Assembly: GCF_007752535.1 (NCBI RefSeq)
Contig: NZ_CP036426.1
Location: 4,898,001-4,962,000, forward strand
Direction: 5' to 3'
DNA length: 64,000 nucleotides
Source of the DNA: Tautonia plasticadhaerens
GTDB lineage: Bacteria; Planctomycetota; Planctomycetia; Isosphaerales; Isosphaeraceae
The position numbers and the translations under genes were made by a program. Within the stretch, counting starts at the first letter, position 1, and every line of letters begins with the position of its first letter. Shown here one piece after another: positions 23,343 to 31,366 of the stretch. The notes under the pieces were generated by a model. That model was not told where the DNA came from and did not search any database. It saw only the letters and a program-made list of their open reading frames with translations.

Positions 23343-23914
23343 CGCGCTGGACCCTCCCCCGGGCCGGATCCGACCACACCGGACCGATTCTCCCCCGAAT
23401 CCGGGCCGCGCCGCAAGCTCGGCCCGCCCCGGGGCCTTCGCGCCGAGGCCGGAGCCCCGCGTCCGTCGCCTCGACCGGTCGGTGGGGGGCGTCGGGGGGC
23501 TTCGCGTTGCGTGCCGGGCCGAGGCGTTGCGGTCGGCCTGCGGGGCCGGCACCTCCGCGGGCCGTCTCATGGGGCAGCTCCGACCGCCGATCGCGTCCTC
23601 TCGGGGATTTCCGCACTGAGGCGGAACGGCTCGCCTGCCGGCCGGACGGATGCCGCCGGGTCGCGACCCGACACGAGAAAGACCGCTCGCGAGCATCCGA
23701 ACCGATCGCGAATCCGCGATCGCCATGGTCCTTCTCGCCTGATTGTGAACAGGGATTTGCAGAATCAATAAATGTTATTCGGAATTTAGCGTTGAATTGC
23801 CAGATCCGGCGTGATCTCATCATGTTGCCAGCGCTCCCGGGGAATCGGGGCGTTCCCGATTCGCGGGGGGGCTGTCAGGCGATTAGGTCGCTAGATCGTG
23901 TGCGAGGAATAAAC
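23343..23914. other. Divergent intergenic region with AT-rich island before the subtilase
   Basis: 572 bases between the minus-strand membrane protein and the subtilase. Bases about 23740-23825 are strikingly AT-rich for this genome (runs such as AATCAATAAATGTTATT and GGAATTTAGC). This likely holds the subtilase promoter and leader. An AGGA element lies about 8 bases before the start ATG. No gene is convincing here. Confidence 0.5.
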
Positions 23915-25747
23915 ATGCTCAGCATGGTGCGAGCTTGCGTTTTCGTCCCGGCCGCGGTGTTGATGTCGGCCGGATCCCATGCCATCCACGCCGCGCAGGA
24001 CGACAAGGTCCAAAGCTCGGCGGTGGCCTTTGCCACGAACCCCGAGGTCCTGATCCGCTATGAGGCCGGGAGATCGGCCGAAGCCCGACGGGCGGCGGAG
24101 GAGGCGGGTTTCGAGATCCTCGAGGACTACGAGCCGGGACTCTACCTGCGCACCAGGCCGGGCCCGGGTACCAGGAGCGTCGCCGCGCGGGCCGTCGCCG
24201 CGTCGTCCGCGGAGGCCGTGCTCCGGATCGAACCCAACTACATCGTGAGCATCCCGGAGCCGATCGGGCCCCGCAGGCCGAACCCGGCGGCGGCCGCGAG
24301 CCCGCGGTCGCCCGCCGCGGCCCCCTCGACCTCGGCGGCCACGCCCGACGACCCGAGGCTCGCCGAGTTGTGGGGGATGGAGAACATCCGGGCGGCGATC
24401 GCCTGGGAGACGGGACACGAGTCGCCCGTCGTCGTCGGCGTGATCGACACGGGGGTGGACTACACCCATGAGGACTTGAGGGACAACATCTGGGTGAATC
24501 CGAATGAGACGCCGGGCGACGGCGTCGACGACGACATGAACGGCATCGCCGACGACGTCCACGGCGCCAGGTTCGACGGCGGCGTCGGCACCGGCGACCC
24601 GATGGACGACAACGCCCACGGCACCCACTGCGCGGGCACGATCGGGGCGGTCGGCGACAACGCGGTGGGCGTGGCCGGCGTCAACTGGAAGGTCCGGATC
24701 ATGGCCCTCAAGTTCCTGAGGGCGAACGGATCGGGGACCACCGATGATGCCATCCGGTGCATCGACTACGCCGTCGCCCAGAAGCGGAACGGCGTCGACC
24801 TCCGCGTCCTGAGCAACAGTTGGGGCGGCGGCGGCCGCTCCACCCTGCTGGAGGAGGCGATCGCCCGGGCCGAGGCGGAGGAGATCCTGTTCGTCGCCGC
24901 GGCCGGCAACTCCTCGCAGGACAACGACCGCACCGACAACTACCCCTCGAACTACCCGCTCGAGAGCATCATCGCCGTCGCCTCGATCAACGTGCGGGAG
25001 GAGATGTCGTGGTTCAGCAGTTTCGGCTTCGAGACGGTCGACCTGGCGGCGCCGGGGGGCACGCTCGAGTCGGAGGACGCGGACGACATCCTCAGCACCG
25101 TGCCCGGCAACGCGTACGACTTCTTCGCGGGCACGTCGATGGCGACCCCGCACGTCGCCGGGGCCGTCGCCCTCGCCTGGGCCCACCCGGACCACAGCGG
25201 CAAGTCGGCGGCGGAGATGAAGGAGCTGATCCTGGACAATGCCCGCTCGATCCCGTCGCTCTCGGGCAGGTGCGTGACCGGGGCGACGCTCGACCTCACG
25301 TTCCTGGGAGATGGCGGGCCGCCGCCGCCGGAGACGCCGGATGACCTCGCCTACTTCGGCCGGGAGGCCGAGCAAGCGGGTGCCTTCGGCCTGAATTCCT
25401 CGACCGGGAGCGCGATCTACATGCTCGGCGGGACGGTCTACCAGAGCAACCTGACGTTCCTGGGTGAGGAGGTCACCCCGGACGGACACCTGGGATGGGT
25501 CTACCGGGAGGATTACCCGTTCGCCCCGTTCGACTTCCTGTTCACCAAGGACCCGATCGGGCTGGCCCCCTACCACCGGGTCTACGCCCGGCCGGCGGAG
25601 GAGATCGGGGTGCCGTTCGGCTGGATGCTCGACGCCAGCCGGGGCGAGGTCCTCGGCGTGACGGACGCGGGGATCCGGTCCGAGCGGCGACGGCAGCTCG
25701 AGGAGATCCGGGCCCGGTCCGCGGAGCGCGACGCGGACCGGCCCTGA
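23915..25747 (+). CDS. Secreted subtilisin-like serine peptidase (S8)
   Basis: 610 residues with a signal peptide (about 1-27, ending HAIHAAQ). Residues about 42-113 form an I9-like propeptide (EVLIRYEAGRSAEARRAAEE ... VLRIEPNYIVS), followed by an Ala/Pro linker. The peptidase domain (about 145-460) has the full triad: Asp178 (VIDTGVDYTHEDL), His235 (NAHGTHCAG) and Ser408 (GTSMATPHVAGA). Oxyanion Asn332 is in AAAGNSS. An insert WVNPNETPGDGVDDDMNGI resembles calcium-binding loops of bacterial subtilases. The last about 140 residues (EAEQAGAFGLNSSTG onward) form an extra domain of unknown role. The start is supported by AGGA and the signal peptide. The next gene encodes a propeptide-like protein. 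Confidence 0.93.
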   Translation: MLSMVRACVFVPAAVLMSAGSHAIHAAQDDKVQSSAVAFATNPEVLIRYEAGRSAEARRAAEEAGFEILEDYEPGLYLRTRPGPGTRSVAARAVAASSAEAVLRIEPNYIVSIPEPIGPRRPNPAAAASPRSPAAAPSTSAATPDDPRLAELWGMENIRAAIAWETGHESPVVVGVIDTGVDYTHEDLRDNIWVNPNETPGDGVDDDMNGIADDVHGARFDGGVGTGDPMDDNAHGTHCAGTIGAVGDNAVGVAGVNWKVRIMALKFLRANGSGTTDDAIRCIDYAVAQKRNGVDLRVLSNSWGGGGRSTLLEEAIARAEAEEILFVAAAGNSSQDNDRTDNYPSNYPLESIIAVASINVREEMSWFSSFGFETVDLAAPGGTLESEDADDILSTVPGNAYDFFAGTSMATPHVAGAVALAWAHPDHSGKSAAEMKELILDNARSIPSLSGRCVTGATLDLTFLGDGGPPPPETPDDLAYFGREAEQAGAFGLNSSTGSAIYMLGGTVYQSNLTFLGEEVTPDGHLGWVYREDYPFAPFDFLFTKDPIGLAPYHRVYARPAEEIGVPFGWMLDASRGEVLGVTDAGIRSERRRQLEEIRARSAERDADRP

Positions 25748-25755
25748 ACCGGCGC

Positions 25756-25789
25756 CCCGGGCCGGGCGGGGTCCCCCGCCCGGCCCGGG
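25756..25789 (+). terminator. Strong hairpin after the subtilase
   Basis: A 16-bp perfect inverted repeat (25756-25771 with 25774-25789) starts 9 bases after the subtilase stop codon. The two-base spacer means the top pairs open to form the loop. No T-tract. Confidence 0.65.
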
Positions 25790-25945
25790 CCAGGCGCACC
25801 CGCGCGGTCGCCCGGATTTCGGGAGCCGACCCCCACGTTGACTTCCCGACCCGGGCCCGGAGAATTGGCGGGAGGATGACCGCCGGAGGTCGGGAGTCGG
25901 GGCGACGTTCGTGGCGTCGGTCCGACTCGGCCGGGAGGGTCTGTC

Positions 25946-26548
25946 ATGTTCATGTTTCCCGGAGTGATGTGCGGGCTTGCCTTCGCCGTGATGGTCAATC
26001 CCCGGACCGGTCCCCAGGCCCAGGCGCCTCAGACGGAGGAGGAACGGATCACGGTCGTGATCCGGGGCAGGCTCGAATTCGACCCGACGGAGGGCGGAGG
26101 TCGGGGGTCGCCGGGTCGCTTCGCCGTCCGATCGCGGGGCATGCTCTTCCGGTTGGAGTTCAAGGAACCCGTGCCGGGACGACCCGAGCTGGATCCCCTG
26201 GTGCAACAGGCCGTGGTCGTGGAAGGGTCCCTCGAGCAGCGAGGGGAACCGGGTCACCTCGTCTGCATCGTGGAGGGGAAGGTGCGGGCCGCCGCAGACG
26301 TCGGGGAGCCCGGGACGATGAGTTACCTCGTGGCTTACGAGAAGGGCCGCGTGCAGGAGGTGGAATCCCTCCTCGAGGACCTCGGCATGGAGGTGAGGAG
26401 CCACAACGAAACCGGCGGCTACTTCAAGGTTACGCCGACCCGGAAGGCCGGCCTCGACTACGTGAAGCGGTTGCAGGAGGGCCCGGGGGTGCGATTCGTC
26501 GAGAAAGAGCAGGTCTACCGACCGCAAGCGGGTACGGAGCCCCGATGA
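25946..26548 (+). CDS. Secreted protein with C-terminal subtilase-propeptide/I9-like domain
   Basis: 200 residues. The N-terminus is a hydrophobic signal (MFMFPGVMCGLAFAVMV). Residues about 35-125 form an uncharacterised beta-rich region (ITVVIRGRLEFDP, VVVEGSLEQRG). Residues about 130-192 read YLVAYEKGRVQEVESLLEDL, then GYFKVTPTRKAGLDYVKRLQ and VRFVEKEQVY. This follows the pattern of peptidase inhibitor I9/subtilase propeptides, which end 'v.yvE.d...'. The neighbouring subtilase carries its own similar propeptide, so this protein may be a separate inhibitor or folding chaperone for it; that role is inferred. A GGAGG site precedes the ATG. Confidence 0.65.
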   Translation: MFMFPGVMCGLAFAVMVNPRTGPQAQAPQTEEERITVVIRGRLEFDPTEGGGRGSPGRFAVRSRGMLFRLEFKEPVPGRPELDPLVQQAVVVEGSLEQRGEPGHLVCIVEGKVRAAADVGEPGTMSYLVAYEKGRVQEVESLLEDLGMEVRSHNETGGYFKVTPTRKAGLDYVKRLQEGPGVRFVEKEQVYRPQAGTEPR

Positions 26549-26929
26549 ATCTCGTCGGCGATGCCAGCTTTGTTTTGCGACGCGGACTCGGTCCGATGCC
26601 GTGCGGACTGACCCCGAGTGCCAACCCCTCCGGCACATTCGGGTGGCTTTGGGTATGAAAAAATGTTAGAACATGGTTGTTCGTGATTTTAAGGTTGCAC
26701 AATCCAAAAAGGCTATTTGTTCATTTATTCAAGCGGTGCTGCCAGGCTCGGCGGCCTTCCGGCGGCCGCCTGGCGTCCCGATTTTTCGACGACTCCCAGA
26801 CGATGGCCGATGCGGTCTGGGAACGCCGCCATGGGATGCCCGGGCTCGTGCCGAAGGCCGATCCCGGCCTAGGATGGAGCGAGGTGGTCGCGGTTCCCGG
26901 GGATCCCCGGTCTCGGGACGACCGCCCGG
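26549..26929. other. AT-rich gap with hairpin
   Basis: Bases about 26655-26740 are AT-rich (GAAAAAATGTTAG, TCATTTATTC), unlike the rest of the window. They are followed by an imperfect GC hairpin (outer arms 26741-26747 and 26768-26774). The AT-rich part may be a promoter for the downstream membrane protein or the residue of an insertion. No gene is convincing. Confidence 0.45.
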
Positions 26930-27670
26930 ATGGGGGACTTGCCGGTGGAGACGACGTACGTGCCGATCCCGATTGCCGAGTCGATCGCCGGGGGCTGGCG
27001 CCCCGGGATCGGCGACCCCTCGGTCGGCGGCTGGCTGACGGTCGCGGCTTACCTGGCGGCGGCGGTCGCCTGCTGGTCGGCCTCGGCCGCCGAGCGGCGT
27101 CGGGGGGACCGCAAGGAGGAATCCCACCCCATCTTCTGGAGGCGGGAGTTCGATCGCCACGACTCCTCGCCGCCCCGGCATCGGCACCGTCCTCCGGCCC
27201 TGCCCCGCGCCGATTCGAGGGGCAGGCGCGTGCTGTTCTGGCGGATTCTGGCGGCAGGGATGCTCGTGCTGGGGATCAATAAGCAGCTCGACTTGCAGAC
27301 CTTGATCCTGGTGGCCGGCCGCGGGCTGGCGAGGGAGCAGGGCTGGTACGAGGACCGCCAGGCCGTGCAGCGGGCCTTCATCTTCGCCGTGGCAGTCGTG
27401 GGGATCGGCGCGCTGTCCGCCTTCGCCTTCCTGTTCCGGTCGGCCGCCCTGCGCCGGCCGTTGGCGCCGATCGGGGTGTTCGCCCTGTTCGCCTTCGTCC
27501 TCGTCCGGGCCTCCTCGTTCCACCACGTGGACGTGCTGCTGGGGGGGGCGTTGCTGGGGGTGCGGGTCAACCTGCTGCTGGAACTCGGCGGGATCCTGCT
27601 GGTGTCCCTCTCGGCGATCCGGTGCATCGCCGAGGCGAGGCGGGGGTGGGAGATCCGGGAGGGGGCATGA
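26930..27670 (+). CDS. Polytopic membrane protein, uncharacterised
   Basis: 246 residues with four predicted transmembrane helices: about 34-51, 101-118, 150-172 and 182-202. A hydrophilic, His/Arg-rich loop (about 55-98) lies between helices 1 and 2. The segment VLGINKQLDLQTLILVAGR is a conserved phrase in a family of bacterial membrane proteins of unknown function, sometimes mislabelled as isopropylmalate isomerase. The start could also be a few codons later (GTG at 26942). It converges with the large minus-strand gene. Confidence 0.7.
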   Translation: MGDLPVETTYVPIPIAESIAGGWRPGIGDPSVGGWLTVAAYLAAAVACWSASAAERRRGDRKEESHPIFWRREFDRHDSSPPRHRHRPPALPRADSRGRRVLFWRILAAGMLVLGINKQLDLQTLILVAGRGLAREQGWYEDRQAVQRAFIFAVAVVGIGALSAFAFLFRSAALRRPLAPIGVFALFAFVLVRASSFHHVDVLLGGALLGVRVNLLLELGGILLVSLSAIRCIAEARRGWEIREGA

Positions 27671-27751: not shown

Positions 27752-30700
27752 CTAGGGCGCGTCGGGGGAGACGACCAGGGTGATCGGCGGGGCGGGGTGG
27801 TCGGTCCCGGCGGCCTCGACCTTGCCGACGGCGAAGATGGGCCGCTCGGCGGGCTCGACCCAGGGCTCGGCGTAGAGGGAGACGGTGCGCTCGACCTCGG
27901 ATTCGGTGATGAGCACGCCGTTGAGGCCGATGTTCAGCACCCGGACGCCGTGGGGGAGGTTCCTCACGTCGATCGGCACCCGGCCCGAGAAGGCGGGGGG
28001 GCGCTCGATCCGGAAGGTCAGCTCGACCCGGCCGCCGGGCCGGAGGACGACCCGGTCCCGGTCGGATCGGACGGTCAGATCCGGCTCGGGGGTGACGGTG
28101 ATCCGGCCGCCGCTCGGGCCTCCGGGGTTGATCTCGTGGCGGAGGACCTCGCCCCCGGGACCGTCGACGGCGGCCTCGGCGATCACCCGCCAGGAGGGGG
28201 GGGAGTAGGTGGGGGCGTCCATCGAGGCCGAGAGCAGCAAGTCGGCCGCATAGTGGCCGGCCTCGACCCGGGACGGGGTGGCGGTGATCCCCGGCGGCAG
28301 GCCCTCGACCCGGAGGTCGATCGGGCCGTCGAAGCCGTCGACCCGGCGGACGTTCACGGTGACGACCGAGGCGCCCCCGCGGGGGATGTCCGGGTCCTCG
28401 GTGCTCAGCGACGTCGCGAAGTCGGGCCGGGGGGGGCGGACGACGACGTGATAGCCGAAGCCGGGGCCGGCGAGCCCCCGGGCGTCGGCGACCCGGACGG
28501 AATAGGTGCCGTCGGCGGGCGGGTTGAAGGCGAGGGAGGCGTCCTTGCCGAGGAAGGGGGCGTCGTCGTTGCGGTGCTCCAGCGTGACCGGCTCGGCGCC
28601 GCCGGGGGGGAAGGTGGTGCCGGGGGGGTGGATCTCGACCTGGTCGATCGGCCGGTCCTGCGGGTGCTGCTCGGGGGTGGTGCCGAGGTAGGTGAGCCGG
28701 CGGCCCCCGGCGGTCCAGAGGAAGGCGTCGTCGTCCGGGTTGCGCGGGAGGTCGAGCAGCCGGGTCAGCTCCCGGCCGATCAGGAGGTAGTCATCCTGGG
28801 AGAACTCGTCCCATCGGGTCAGCCTCATGCGGTCCTGCGAGGCGTCGTGGTCCCGGAAGGCGACCGCCGACCGGGCGACGGGTCGGAGCACGGCGAGGGG
28901 GATGGGGTCGCCGTCGGCGTCGAGGATCTCCAGGACCGGGTCGACCTCGGTGCCCAGGCGACGGCCGAAAACCTCGACGACCAGGGGGCGGCCGCGGCGG
29001 GCCTCGAAGGTGTAATGGTCCACGTCCCCGGGGAGGTCGATCCGGGCCGAGGCGCCCCCGGGCACGGCCAGCGCGACGCCGCAGCAGGGCTCGTCGTCGG
29101 GCTCGATCTCGACGACCTGACTCCCCTCGGCGGCGACGACCCGAGGCCCCCCCTCGGCCGGTCGGCCGTCGGGCCCGGCGGCGGGGACGGGGAGGATGGA
29201 GCCGGGGGCGATCCCGGGAGGGGCGGCGACGGAGACCGAGGCGGTCTCCAGGTTCGGGCCCGAGACCGCGACCTCGGCCGAGGTGCCGACCTCGACGCCG
29301 ATCGGGAACGCATCGTCGAGCACCGGGATCTCCCCGACCTCGATCCGGTAGAAGTGATTGCCCGAGCCGCCGAACTGGCGATCTGCCACCCGGAGCGTCA
29401 GCGGGCCGTCGGCCTCGGCGGCGTGGGAGAGGGGCGATCGGCCCCGGGCCACGACCCGGCCGTCGGGGGTGAGCAACTCCAGGGTCGGGTCGAGCGCCGA
29501 GCCGAGGGCCTGGCCCCGGTCGAGCAGGACGATGGTGCGCCCGGCCTTCGCCTGGAAGCCGAGGAAATCGACGTCGCCCGGCGTCTCGATCGCCCCCGAG
29601 AGGGTGGCGGGGATCGGGAGGGCGGTGGCCTGGTCGGCGTCGTCGTTCGGCTCGACCTCGGCGCGTTCGGGGGCGTCGTAGACGGCGAAGCCCTGCGGGG
29701 CGGGTACGCCGAGCGGGGTCTGGACGCGGAAGGCGTGGCGGCCGATCCGGGCGTCGGGGGGGATGGTCAGCTCGACGTGCAGGCGGTTCGGGTCGGGGTC
29801 GTCGCTCGCCAGGATGGAGGCGGAGAGGCTCGGGTCGTCGAAGACGACCGCATTGGCGAGGCCGACGCCGTTTCCGGACAGGTTCACCGTGAGCGTCCGG
29901 CCCCGCTCGGACCCCTTCGGGGCGGGGGGGCCGAGCGAGGGGCGTCGGACCAGTTCGGGCTTCGGGGGCTCGGGGGAGGTTTCCTCGGGCACGGCGTCGG
30001 GGGGCTCGTCCCCCGGGGCGGTCAGCAGGGCGAGGGCGTCGTTGGGTGTCGCGCCGGGGTCGGCGGGGAGCAGGGCGAGGGAGCCGTCGTATCGGCCGAG
30101 GGCGATCCGATCGCCGGGGGGGCTGAGCGCGGCGGCGAGGGGCCAGTCGGGCTGGCTCGGCAGGGCGGCGATCGGCCCCAGCTTGGGGAGCGACCAGAGC
30201 TTCACCGCGGCGTCCTCGCCGGTGGAGACGAGTCGGGATCCGTCGGGGGAGACGAGCAGGTCGAGCACGGCGGCGTCGTGGGCGATGGCCGACCGGGAGA
30301 GCGTGGCCGAGTCCCCGGATCGGGTCCACTGCCGGATGGTCCGGTCGGCGCCCCCGGCCAGCACGGTCGAGCCGTCGGGCCCGAAGGCGACGGCGTACAG
30401 CTCGGCCGAGGCGTCGCCGAGCGAGACGATCCGCCGGCCGGTGGCCGGGTCCCAGAGCTTCACCGTCCGGTCCCCCGAGGCCGAGGCGAGCGTCGAGCCG
30501 TCGGGGGAGAAGGCGACGGCGTAGACGGCATCGGTGTGCTCCTTGAGGGTCCGGATCTCGGCGCCGGTCTCGAGATCCCAGAGCATGACCAGGCGATCGT
30601 AGCTCGACGTGGCCAGGGTCCGGCCGTCGGGGGCGAGGGCGGCGTCGAGGATGGCGTCGGCGTGGCCCCTCCAGGAATTGACGACGTTCCCCGTCTCCAG

Positions 30701-31366
30701 GTCCCAGACGGCGATCGCGCCGAAGAGGCCGGGGCGGCCCCCGGCGGCGACGGCGAGCCGGCCGTCGGGCCCGAAGGCGACGGCGTTGGCCGTCCCCTCG
30801 AAGCCCGACAGGGAATGGAGCGTCGAGCCGTCGGCCGGGTCGAGCAGGAGGATCTGGTCTCCCCGGGCGGCGAGCAGCCGGGAGCCTTCGGGCCCGAAGG
30901 CGACGGCGGAGGCGGGGTCGGCCACGGCGGCGGTGACGGCGACCTCGGGGAGGTTGGCCAGGGGGTCGACGAGCGAGGCGAGCCGGGCGTCCTCGGCCAC
31001 GTCGCCGATCGAGGCCCCCTCGGCGATCCACCGGGCGATGAGGTCGATCTGGTCGTCGGGGAGCGGGTCCTGTTCGAAGGGCATCCGGATGGCGGCGTCG
31101 GGCCGGAGGACGCGGACGAGGTGGCTCTCCTCGGGCTCCCCGGGCAGGAGGATCAGGTCCCCCTCGATCGCCCCGCCTTCCCTGAGGCGGGCGAAGGTGC
31201 CCAGGTTCAGGCCCCCCTGCTCGTCGCCGTCGCGGTGGCAGGAGACGCACCGGGAGACGAGGATCGGCGCCACGTCTTCGAGGAACCGGACGGGGGCCGG
31301 GTCGTCCGCCGTCGTGGTCGGGAGAATCGTCGGCGCGGCGATGATGAGGGCGAGGAGCGGTGCCAT
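27752..31366 (-). CDS. Secreted planctomycete cytochrome-c / WD40 / PPC-domain protein
   Basis: 1204 residues with a signal peptide (MAPLLALIIAAPTIL). A planctomycete-type cytochrome c domain follows: SRCVSCHRDGDEQGGLNL has the CxxCH heme site at 40-44. A WD40 propeller of six or seven blades (about 130-420) shows typical phrases (SPDGSTLASASGDRTVKLWD, YDRLVMLWDLETG). The region after about 480 carries beta-sandwich modules, including EVEPNDDADQATALPIP (pre-peptidase C-terminal/PPC signature) and EIEPDDEPCCG, a second PPC-like start. The protein is probably periplasmic or surface-exposed. Function unknown; such proteins are abundant in planctomycetes beside DUF1501/DUF1549 genes, as here. Confidence 0.88.
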   Translation of the reverse strand: MAPLLALIIAAPTILPTTTADDPAPVRFLEDVAPILVSRCVSCHRDGDEQGGLNLGTFARLREGGAIEGDLILLPGEPEESHLVRVLRPDAAIRMPFEQDPLPDDQIDLIARWIAEGASIGDVAEDARLASLVDPLANLPEVAVTAAVADPASAVAFGPEGSRLLAARGDQILLLDPADGSTLHSLSGFEGTANAVAFGPDGRLAVAAGGRPGLFGAIAVWDLETGNVVNSWRGHADAILDAALAPDGRTLATSSYDRLVMLWDLETGAEIRTLKEHTDAVYAVAFSPDGSTLASASGDRTVKLWDPATGRRIVSLGDASAELYAVAFGPDGSTVLAGGADRTIRQWTRSGDSATLSRSAIAHDAAVLDLLVSPDGSRLVSTGEDAAVKLWSLPKLGPIAALPSQPDWPLAAALSPPGDRIALGRYDGSLALLPADPGATPNDALALLTAPGDEPPDAVPEETSPEPPKPELVRRPSLGPPAPKGSERGRTLTVNLSGNGVGLANAVVFDDPSLSASILASDDPDPNRLHVELTIPPDARIGRHAFRVQTPLGVPAPQGFAVYDAPERAEVEPNDDADQATALPIPATLSGAIETPGDVDFLGFQAKAGRTIVLLDRGQALGSALDPTLELLTPDGRVVARGRSPLSHAAEADGPLTLRVADRQFGGSGNHFYRIEVGEIPVLDDAFPIGVEVGTSAEVAVSGPNLETASVSVAAPPGIAPGSILPVPAAGPDGRPAEGGPRVVAAEGSQVVEIEPDDEPCCGVALAVPGGASARIDLPGDVDHYTFEARRGRPLVVEVFGRRLGTEVDPVLEILDADGDPIPLAVLRPVARSAVAFRDHDASQDRMRLTRWDEFSQDDYLLIGRELTRLLDLPRNPDDDAFLWTAGGRRLTYLGTTPEQHPQDRPIDQVEIHPPGTTFPPGGAEPVTLEHRNDDAPFLGKDASLAFNPPADGTYSVRVADARGLAGPGFGYHVVVRPPRPDFATSLSTEDPDIPRGGASVVTVNVRRVDGFDGPIDLRVEGLPPGITATPSRVEAGHYAADLLLSASMDAPTYSPPSWRVIAEAAVDGPGGEVLRHEINPGGPSGGRITVTPEPDLTVRSDRDRVVLRPGGRVELTFRIERPPAFSGRVPIDVRNLPHGVRVLNIGLNGVLITESEVERTVSLYAEPWVEPAERPIFAVGKVEAAGTDHPAPPITLVVSPDAP

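Follow-up and report, generated by a model that had tools for sequence, protein, structure and literature searches.

Stand-alone proteins that resemble subtilase propeptides can inhibit or regulate subtilases; those treated in the accessible part of PMC6993865 are all eukaryotic, and convergent evolution of such inhibitors is suggested there. Some selectivity of a propeptide for its cognate protease is possible (PMC10580911, partial text), and in Aeromonas sobria and Vibrio vulnificus the gene just downstream of a secreted serine protease gene encodes a dedicated protease regulator, namely ORF2 for the protease ASP and VvsB for VvsA (excerpts of PMC5638518 and PMC11272048). Here we describe a gene pair of the planctomycete Tautonia plasticadhaerens (Planctomycetia; Isosphaeraceae), located in a 64,000-nucleotide stretch of its genome (NZ_CP036426.1, positions 4,898,001 to 4,962,000; hereafter the window; genome handle G000). 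In this pair a gene for an S8 protease (subtilase; P0001) is followed by a gene for a partner protein (P0002) whose C-terminal tail, judged by profile comparison, is a free-standing relative of subtilase prodomains. Our literature search at title and abstract level, with subscription papers largely outside it, found neither a bacterial stand-alone prodomain beside its own subtilase nor an account of this planctomycete gene pair.

P0001 matched the Pfam family PF00082 (Peptidase_S8) with an expect value (E) of 7.4e-54, and its catalytic residues Asp178, His235 and Ser408 stand at the usual places, in motifs that are kept across the protease clade described below. The N-terminus of P0001 is hydrophobic by eye, which gives the protein a secreted appearance. 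P0002 has its own open reading frame (ORF) on the same strand, with a stop codon and a gap of 198 nucleotides (nt) between the two proteins, and the arrangement is alike in a second genome, G023, where the P0002 orthologue P0003 (34% identical) adjoins the orthologous protease. P0002 is laid out as a hydrophobic N-terminus (by eye, without early positive charge, and again secreted by appearance), a beta-rich domain and the tail. The coordinates that an earlier, sequence-only reading of this DNA had given for the protease and the second ORF proved exact (Table 1).

A profile of the P0002 and P0003 tails matched 33 subtilase N-terminal stretches in hhalign at E=2.4e-7 and the prodomains of the four closest subtilases at E=2.2e-9. 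The unshuffled tail profile scored 41.8 and 53.7 in these comparisons, whereas the highest scores among its column shuffles (100 each) were 15.9 and 17.1. The beta domain served as a control and gave no profile match to the same 33 stretches. The P0003 tail also matched the Pfam family PF22148 (Fervidolysin_NPro-like) at E=2.5e-7 and 31.4 bits (cut-off 21). A model made from the four subtilase prodomains only matched both tails in a three-protein search (17.9 and 14.7 bits) and P0003 at E=0.006 in whole genomes, and the partner profile, run across 392 genomes, also matched the prodomain of a subtilase in G354 (E=4.6e-4). Sequence searches of the PDB were suggestive only: the partner profile met the BPN' prodomain at E=0.032, the protease prodomains gave E 0.058 alongside caspase-8 false positives, and P0003 alone had no match. 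Two results count against homology. BLASTP of P0001 against P0002 was not significant (best E 3.1), and the prodomains of the nine clade proteases tested all stayed below the Pfam cut-offs; six of them matched PF22148 at E<=0.1 (best 0.0049, 17.7 bits, cut-off 21) and one matched Inhibitor_I9 at 0.007. For P0002, the link between tail and prodomain rests on the orthologue in the second genome together with the profiles. By these comparisons the tail of P0002 is homologous to subtilase prodomains, and the sequence-only reading, which saw the second protein end in a module like the protease propeptide, is borne out.

The partner alignment had no match in contigs of named genomes, viral contigs or plasmids. 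A partner match in the window's own genome (E 0.29) turned out to be an unrelated YebC-like ORF, and a weak whole-genome match in a frame opposite an ABC-transporter ORF was likewise unrelated. PF22148 was found in 61 of 297 genomes of the class. Almost all of its matches lay in frames exceeding 450 codons; these were taken as fused from their length and not opened singly. Frames of at most 401 codons gave eight matches, one of them the G023 partner. Four of the other seven were unrelated (among them HslV-like, oxidoreductase and aminotransferase frames, named by eye) and two were subtilases broken by a contig end; a 123-codon frame in G574 was dropped as a second free-standing prodomain, since the catalytic domain of a subtilase comes after it in a different frame. 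In G574 (L066 8048-10484) the frame with the prodomain overlaps the one with the catalytic domain, as a frameshift, an assembly error or a programmed event would produce. Over the 297 genomes, the G023 partner was the only free-standing prodomain found with the PF22148 model, and P0002 lies below the reach of this model.

When the tail model was compared with N-terminal stretches of subtilases, the clade of the neighbouring protease occupied ranks 1-17 of 47 (44 scored); the ranking is given without a probability because related sequences are not independent. The clade is a 17-row group with support 99/97 in a midpoint-rooted catalytic-domain tree of 27 rows, which took in only 10 of the N-terminal stretches outside the clade. 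One of the 17 members (L019) was first found by the partner profile itself, the other 16 not. On this ranking, the tail is derived from the prodomains of the clade to which the adjacent protease belongs. Two clade members on long branches, in G627 (L113) and G690 (L114), have the prodomains at ranks 7 and 1 of this comparison.

Fold prediction pointed in the same direction. The tail alone was modelled by AlphaFold2 with a predicted local distance difference test score (pLDDT) of 80.4; the full-length partner gave a poor model (pLDDT 41.7), which was kept out of the fold searches. In Foldseek against the PDB, ranks 1-3 were propeptide or pro-enzyme chains of the subtilisins BPN' and E (probability 1.00), headed by the BPN' propeptide 3cnq_P (E 2e-3, probability 1.00, template-modelling score by target 0.73); rank 4 was 8c4x_B, going by its title a 'PAM Protease', rank 5 was NapD and rank 17 fervidolysin. 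VIA-align returned many subtilisin propeptides at Z 8.2-8.8 with a root-mean-square deviation (rmsd) of 1.8-2.6, the BPN' propeptide among them (Z 8.8, rmsd 2.6). The fold predicted for the tail is thus subtilisin-propeptide-like, and the first outcome that the sequence-only reading had named as refuting, a predicted structure unrelated to I9, did not arise. Structure supports the sequence result and does not prove it, because ferredoxin-like folds are common. The term I9-like, which had been given to the protease's own propeptide, holds for the fold; within Pfam, Fervidolysin_NPro-like is a nearer model than Inhibitor_I9, and the prodomain of P0001 itself matched no Pfam prodomain model and reached no curated cut-off. 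The tail of P0002 contains Glu186-x-Glu188 and that of P0003 Glu-x-Asn; beyond this pair the chain continues for 8 residues in one of the two proteins and for 12 in the other. By eye, the P0002 pair sits where Glu69/Asp71 in BPN' and Glu146/Asn148 in SUB1-ProM act as helix-capping residues (PMC6993865, accessible part).

The gene pair itself is conserved in related genomes, so that the second outcome named as refuting, a lack of co-occurrence of the two genes, did not arise either. In whole-genome alignment searches, which give lower bounds as the best 8, 14 or 19 first-look candidates per genome were scored, the protease prodomain model had matches at E<=0.01 in at least 21 of the 397 class genomes. 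Fifteen of these reached 56 bits or more, and four of the 15 had contributed to the model. A partner with a small beta domain is encoded directly downstream on the same strand in all 15 strong genomes, and the beta-domain model used for this check contained no sequence from 11 of them. The same domain was found at none of 19 control S8 loci (15/15 versus 0/19; Fisher p 5e-10, relatedness ignored). For the controls, 23 loci had been chosen and 4 dropped (no S8, or less than 1000 nt downstream); those counted were G627, G690 and 17 others, each with at least 1000 nt downstream; four came from the genome of the window itself. An earlier control was set aside as uninformative because only 1 of its 40 stretches extended 600 nt past the gene. 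Of the four genomes with still weaker prodomain matches than G627 and G690, G719 showed no partner in the stretch examined, and the S8 locus of G011 was among the controls, with none from G551 or G008. The proteins of all pairs are separated by less than about 200 nt if the first plausible start codon is taken, several start codons being uncertain. In G514 (L104 5929-6498, minus strand) the open frame of the partner lacks a start codon upstream of its beta domain, which reflects an unusual start, a sequencing error or a broken gene. The paired subtilase of G046 (L072 8496-9956) ends in a Cys/His-rich C-terminal tail that looks metal-binding by eye.

We lean towards reading the pair as a protease/regulator cassette, in which the partner gained a trans-acting prodomain and would inhibit the mature protease in trans, perhaps also aiding its folding; its chances appear to us slightly better than even. 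The S8 protease would be exported, judging its N-terminus by eye, and would fold with the aid of its own covalent prodomain, while the downstream gene would export a dedicated partner with the small beta domain as the conserved element of the pairing. In Isosphaeraceae, the partner would carry a copy of the prodomain of the same protease clade with its C-terminus free. It would most likely dock on the catalytic domain in the manner of a propeptide, with the beta sheet on the surface and the C-terminal tail lying in the groove for the substrate. In this way it would keep the mature enzyme inhibited in trans, perhaps helping it to fold, until the partner is cleaved or released. The free tail of P0002 may be the counterpart of the stretch that known propeptides insert into the active site (PMC6993865, in part). 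The analysis itself establishes the order of the genes, the conservation of the pair, and the homology and predicted fold of the module; export (by eye), binding, inhibition and the direction and timing of partner action are inferred, docking and inhibition from the way in which propeptides and SUB1-ProM act (PMC6993865, accessible part).

Several observations weigh against this reading. P0001 already has a prodomain of its own, and a prodomain copy could bind without inhibiting. P0002 matched no family in Pfam or NCBIfam, and with the prodomain-only model it was not among the matches at E<=0.01 in its own genome. Foldseek gave no PDB match at E<=0.001 (best 2e-3), and VIA-align placed NapD first (Z 9.2, rmsd 6.5), with other ferredoxin-like folds close and DAHP synthase at rank 12 (Z 8.3, rmsd 4.9). 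The clade subtilases of G627 and G690 (26 and 25 bits) had no beta-domain partner in the stretch examined. In the window, co-expression of the pair may fail because a strong hairpin and a promoter-like site intervene. Finally, in 13 of the 15 pairs the partner has two beta domains but yields no tail match, so that pairing does not need the prodomain module.

Among the 15 pairs, one beta domain with a prodomain tail was found only in the window genome and G023, both of Isosphaeraceae, and a tailed partner occurred in 2 of the 45 Isosphaeraceae genomes searched. The interpretation in the sequence-only reading, a propeptide-like inhibitor or chaperone paired with its protease, is therefore partly supported: being present in only 2/15 pairs, the propeptide-like module cannot be their common basis. 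An ancestral two-beta form of the partner is weakly supported (tree support 80/75). The pair persists in related lineages that lack the module, so that the gain of the module can be studied.

The element common to all 15 pairs is the beta domain. The 'unrelated beta-rich domain' to which the module had been described as attached is real and is the very part that recurs in every pair. Model A6, with P0002 among its 13 rows, matched the P0002 beta domain at E=4.4e-18 in a search of the whole window genome. Compared with the two-domain partners (11 of 13 used), the P0002 domain matched the second domain at E=4.6e-9 and the first at 1.5e-4; the tail showed no relation to either (E 0.84 and 0.49). 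The beta domain occurred in at least 29 of 294 class genomes and stood beside this subtilase in 11 of the 29. At the loci examined from the other 18, the flanks (about 1.5 kb, some shorter) showed no S8 serine motif; there the domain lies, as far as the frame is readable, in small secreted-looking proteins or behind another domain. As it occurs without an S8 gene beside it, the beta domain is not a dedicated protease binder everywhere. Four of the 15 partners matched DUF5818, a weak likeness (best E=2e-4), and P0002 had no match to it at E<=0.1; a sequence search of the PDB gave no credible relative of the beta domain. At four loci of family f5 (L017, L020, L122, L125), the beta domain is preceded by another domain of secreted appearance, and the flanks examined contain no subtilase; L017 and L020 scored 13.0 and 14.5 bits against DUF5818, below its cut-off of 27. 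Binding to the protease, if it occurs, would make the beta domain a new protease-partner domain, in a pair present in at least 15 of 397 class genomes.

A wider reading, to which we give a little less than an even chance, is that a hitherto undescribed planctomycete family of subtilase regulators is built on this new small beta domain and that one lineage captured the prodomain of its target, yielding a bacterial trans-acting prodomain inhibitor. If true, the locus would offer a direct snapshot of stand-alone propeptide inhibitors arising from the prodomain of the protease that they control.

The beta domain, as the sole part that all 15 pairs share, could also be what binds or anchors the protease, with the tail adding affinity or guiding assembly without any block; the partner would then be an accessory subunit and not an inhibitor. 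The lipoproteins PrcB and PrcA form a stable complex with the subtilisin-family protease PrtP, and PrtP requires PrcB within this dentilisin complex (PMC8167434, partial text). We consider this role rather unlikely, as known inhibitors take the propeptide fold with a free C-terminal tail (PMC6993865, accessible part) and the beta domain is also found where no S8 gene adjoins it (18 of 29 genomes, in the flanks examined).

Less probable still is an external folding chaperone of the ORF2 type, which would help the nascent protease to fold and then be degraded. ASP, the client of ORF2, is an S8 enzyme. Encoded downstream, ORF2 serves as chaperone and temporary inhibitor, and its C-terminal end contacts residues around the catalytic site (PMC5638518, in excerpt), which speaks for this possibility. 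However, ASP is propeptide-deficient, according to an entry in the reference list of PMC5638518, whereas P0001 has its own prodomain, which should suffice for folding.

That the two genes are neighbours without any physical link, the partner acting on another protease or being a cell-surface protein, is the most doubtful of these possibilities: the intergenic hairpin, the separate promoter-like site and the presence of four or more additional S8 genes in this genome would fit it, but the adjacency in 15/15 pairs against 0/19 controls, with gaps below about 200 nt (start codons uncertain), and a tail nearest to the prodomains of this protease's own clade argue against it.

The features of the pair are collected in Table 1. 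The 211-nt stretch 25740-25950 between the genes folded better than all 200 of its shuffles (z -3.46), and the hairpin in it is possibly a terminator or an mRNA stabiliser. The promoter-like site was the only one in 23500-26950, where 0.2 were expected. Co-transcription of the P0001 and P0002 genes is not assured in the window genome. Among the 297 class genomes, the extra C-terminal domain of P0001 was clear in the window genome (E 1.3e-70) and G023 (2.2e-74), with two more, marginal matches (E 0.002 and 0.005); an alignment search gave no match in contigs of named genomes. The window genome encodes at least four more S8 subtilases (C1:14841, 190897, 898451, 5542309), with no such partner in the stretches examined. 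Further along the window, the minus strand at 27752-31366 holds a 1204-residue ORF; its product carries a CxxCH motif close to the N-terminus and, by eye, WD40-like repeats.

Table 1. Features of the protease/partner locus; positions refer to the window.
Feature	Position	Strand	Residues	Basis and remarks
S8 (subtilase) protease P0001	23915..25747	+	610 amino acids	ORF and Pfam PF00082; ATG at 23915, stop codon ending at 25747
Own N-terminal prodomain of P0001	24041..24262	+	~43-116 (~75 residues)	Aligned with clade prodomains
S8 catalytic domain of P0001	24428..25249	+	172-445	Pfam PF00082
Extra C-terminal domain of P0001	25340..25663	+	~476-583	
Perfect 15-bp G+C hairpin	25756..25789	+		Just 3' of the protease stop codon; T run absent after the hairpin
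Promoter-like site 5' of the partner gene	25838..25865	+		Weak consensus match
Partner P0002	25946..26548	+	200 amino acids	ORF; orthologue P0003 beside the orthologous protease in G023
Small beta domain of P0002	26045..26284	+	~34-113	In partners of all 15 pairs
Stand-alone prodomain-like module of P0002	26318..26518	+	~125-191	Profiles and predicted fold
Free C-terminal tail of P0002	26519..26545	+		After the last strand; alignment

Taken as a subtilase with a trans-acting prodomain partner, the pair can be set beside several known systems. In Myxococcus xanthus, the bacterial protease PopC is likewise held back by complexing a dedicated protein, PopD; PopD differs in that it blocks secretion inside the cell (PMC6434023, in part). 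PF22148 is the family of the P0003 tail, and its other matches in the 297 class genomes lay in long frames or, where checked, were fused, split or unrelated. SUB1-ProM of Plasmodium resembles the window partner in being a separate gene product with a propeptide-like predicted fold, and both are encoded beside the subtilase whose prodomain they resemble most (PMC6993865, accessible part). Its Glu-x-Asn capping pair is that of P0003, whereas P0002 has Glu-x-Glu. SUB1-ProM differs from the partner in being eukaryotic, and the accessible text mentions no such beta domain in it; inhibition was measured there and is proposed by analogy here. The other eukaryotic stand-alone propeptide mimics in that text also act on subtilases, and three of them, according to the same text, show no significant similarity in sequence to propeptides; the module of the window partner, by contrast, is detectably related to the prodomains of its neighbour's clade.

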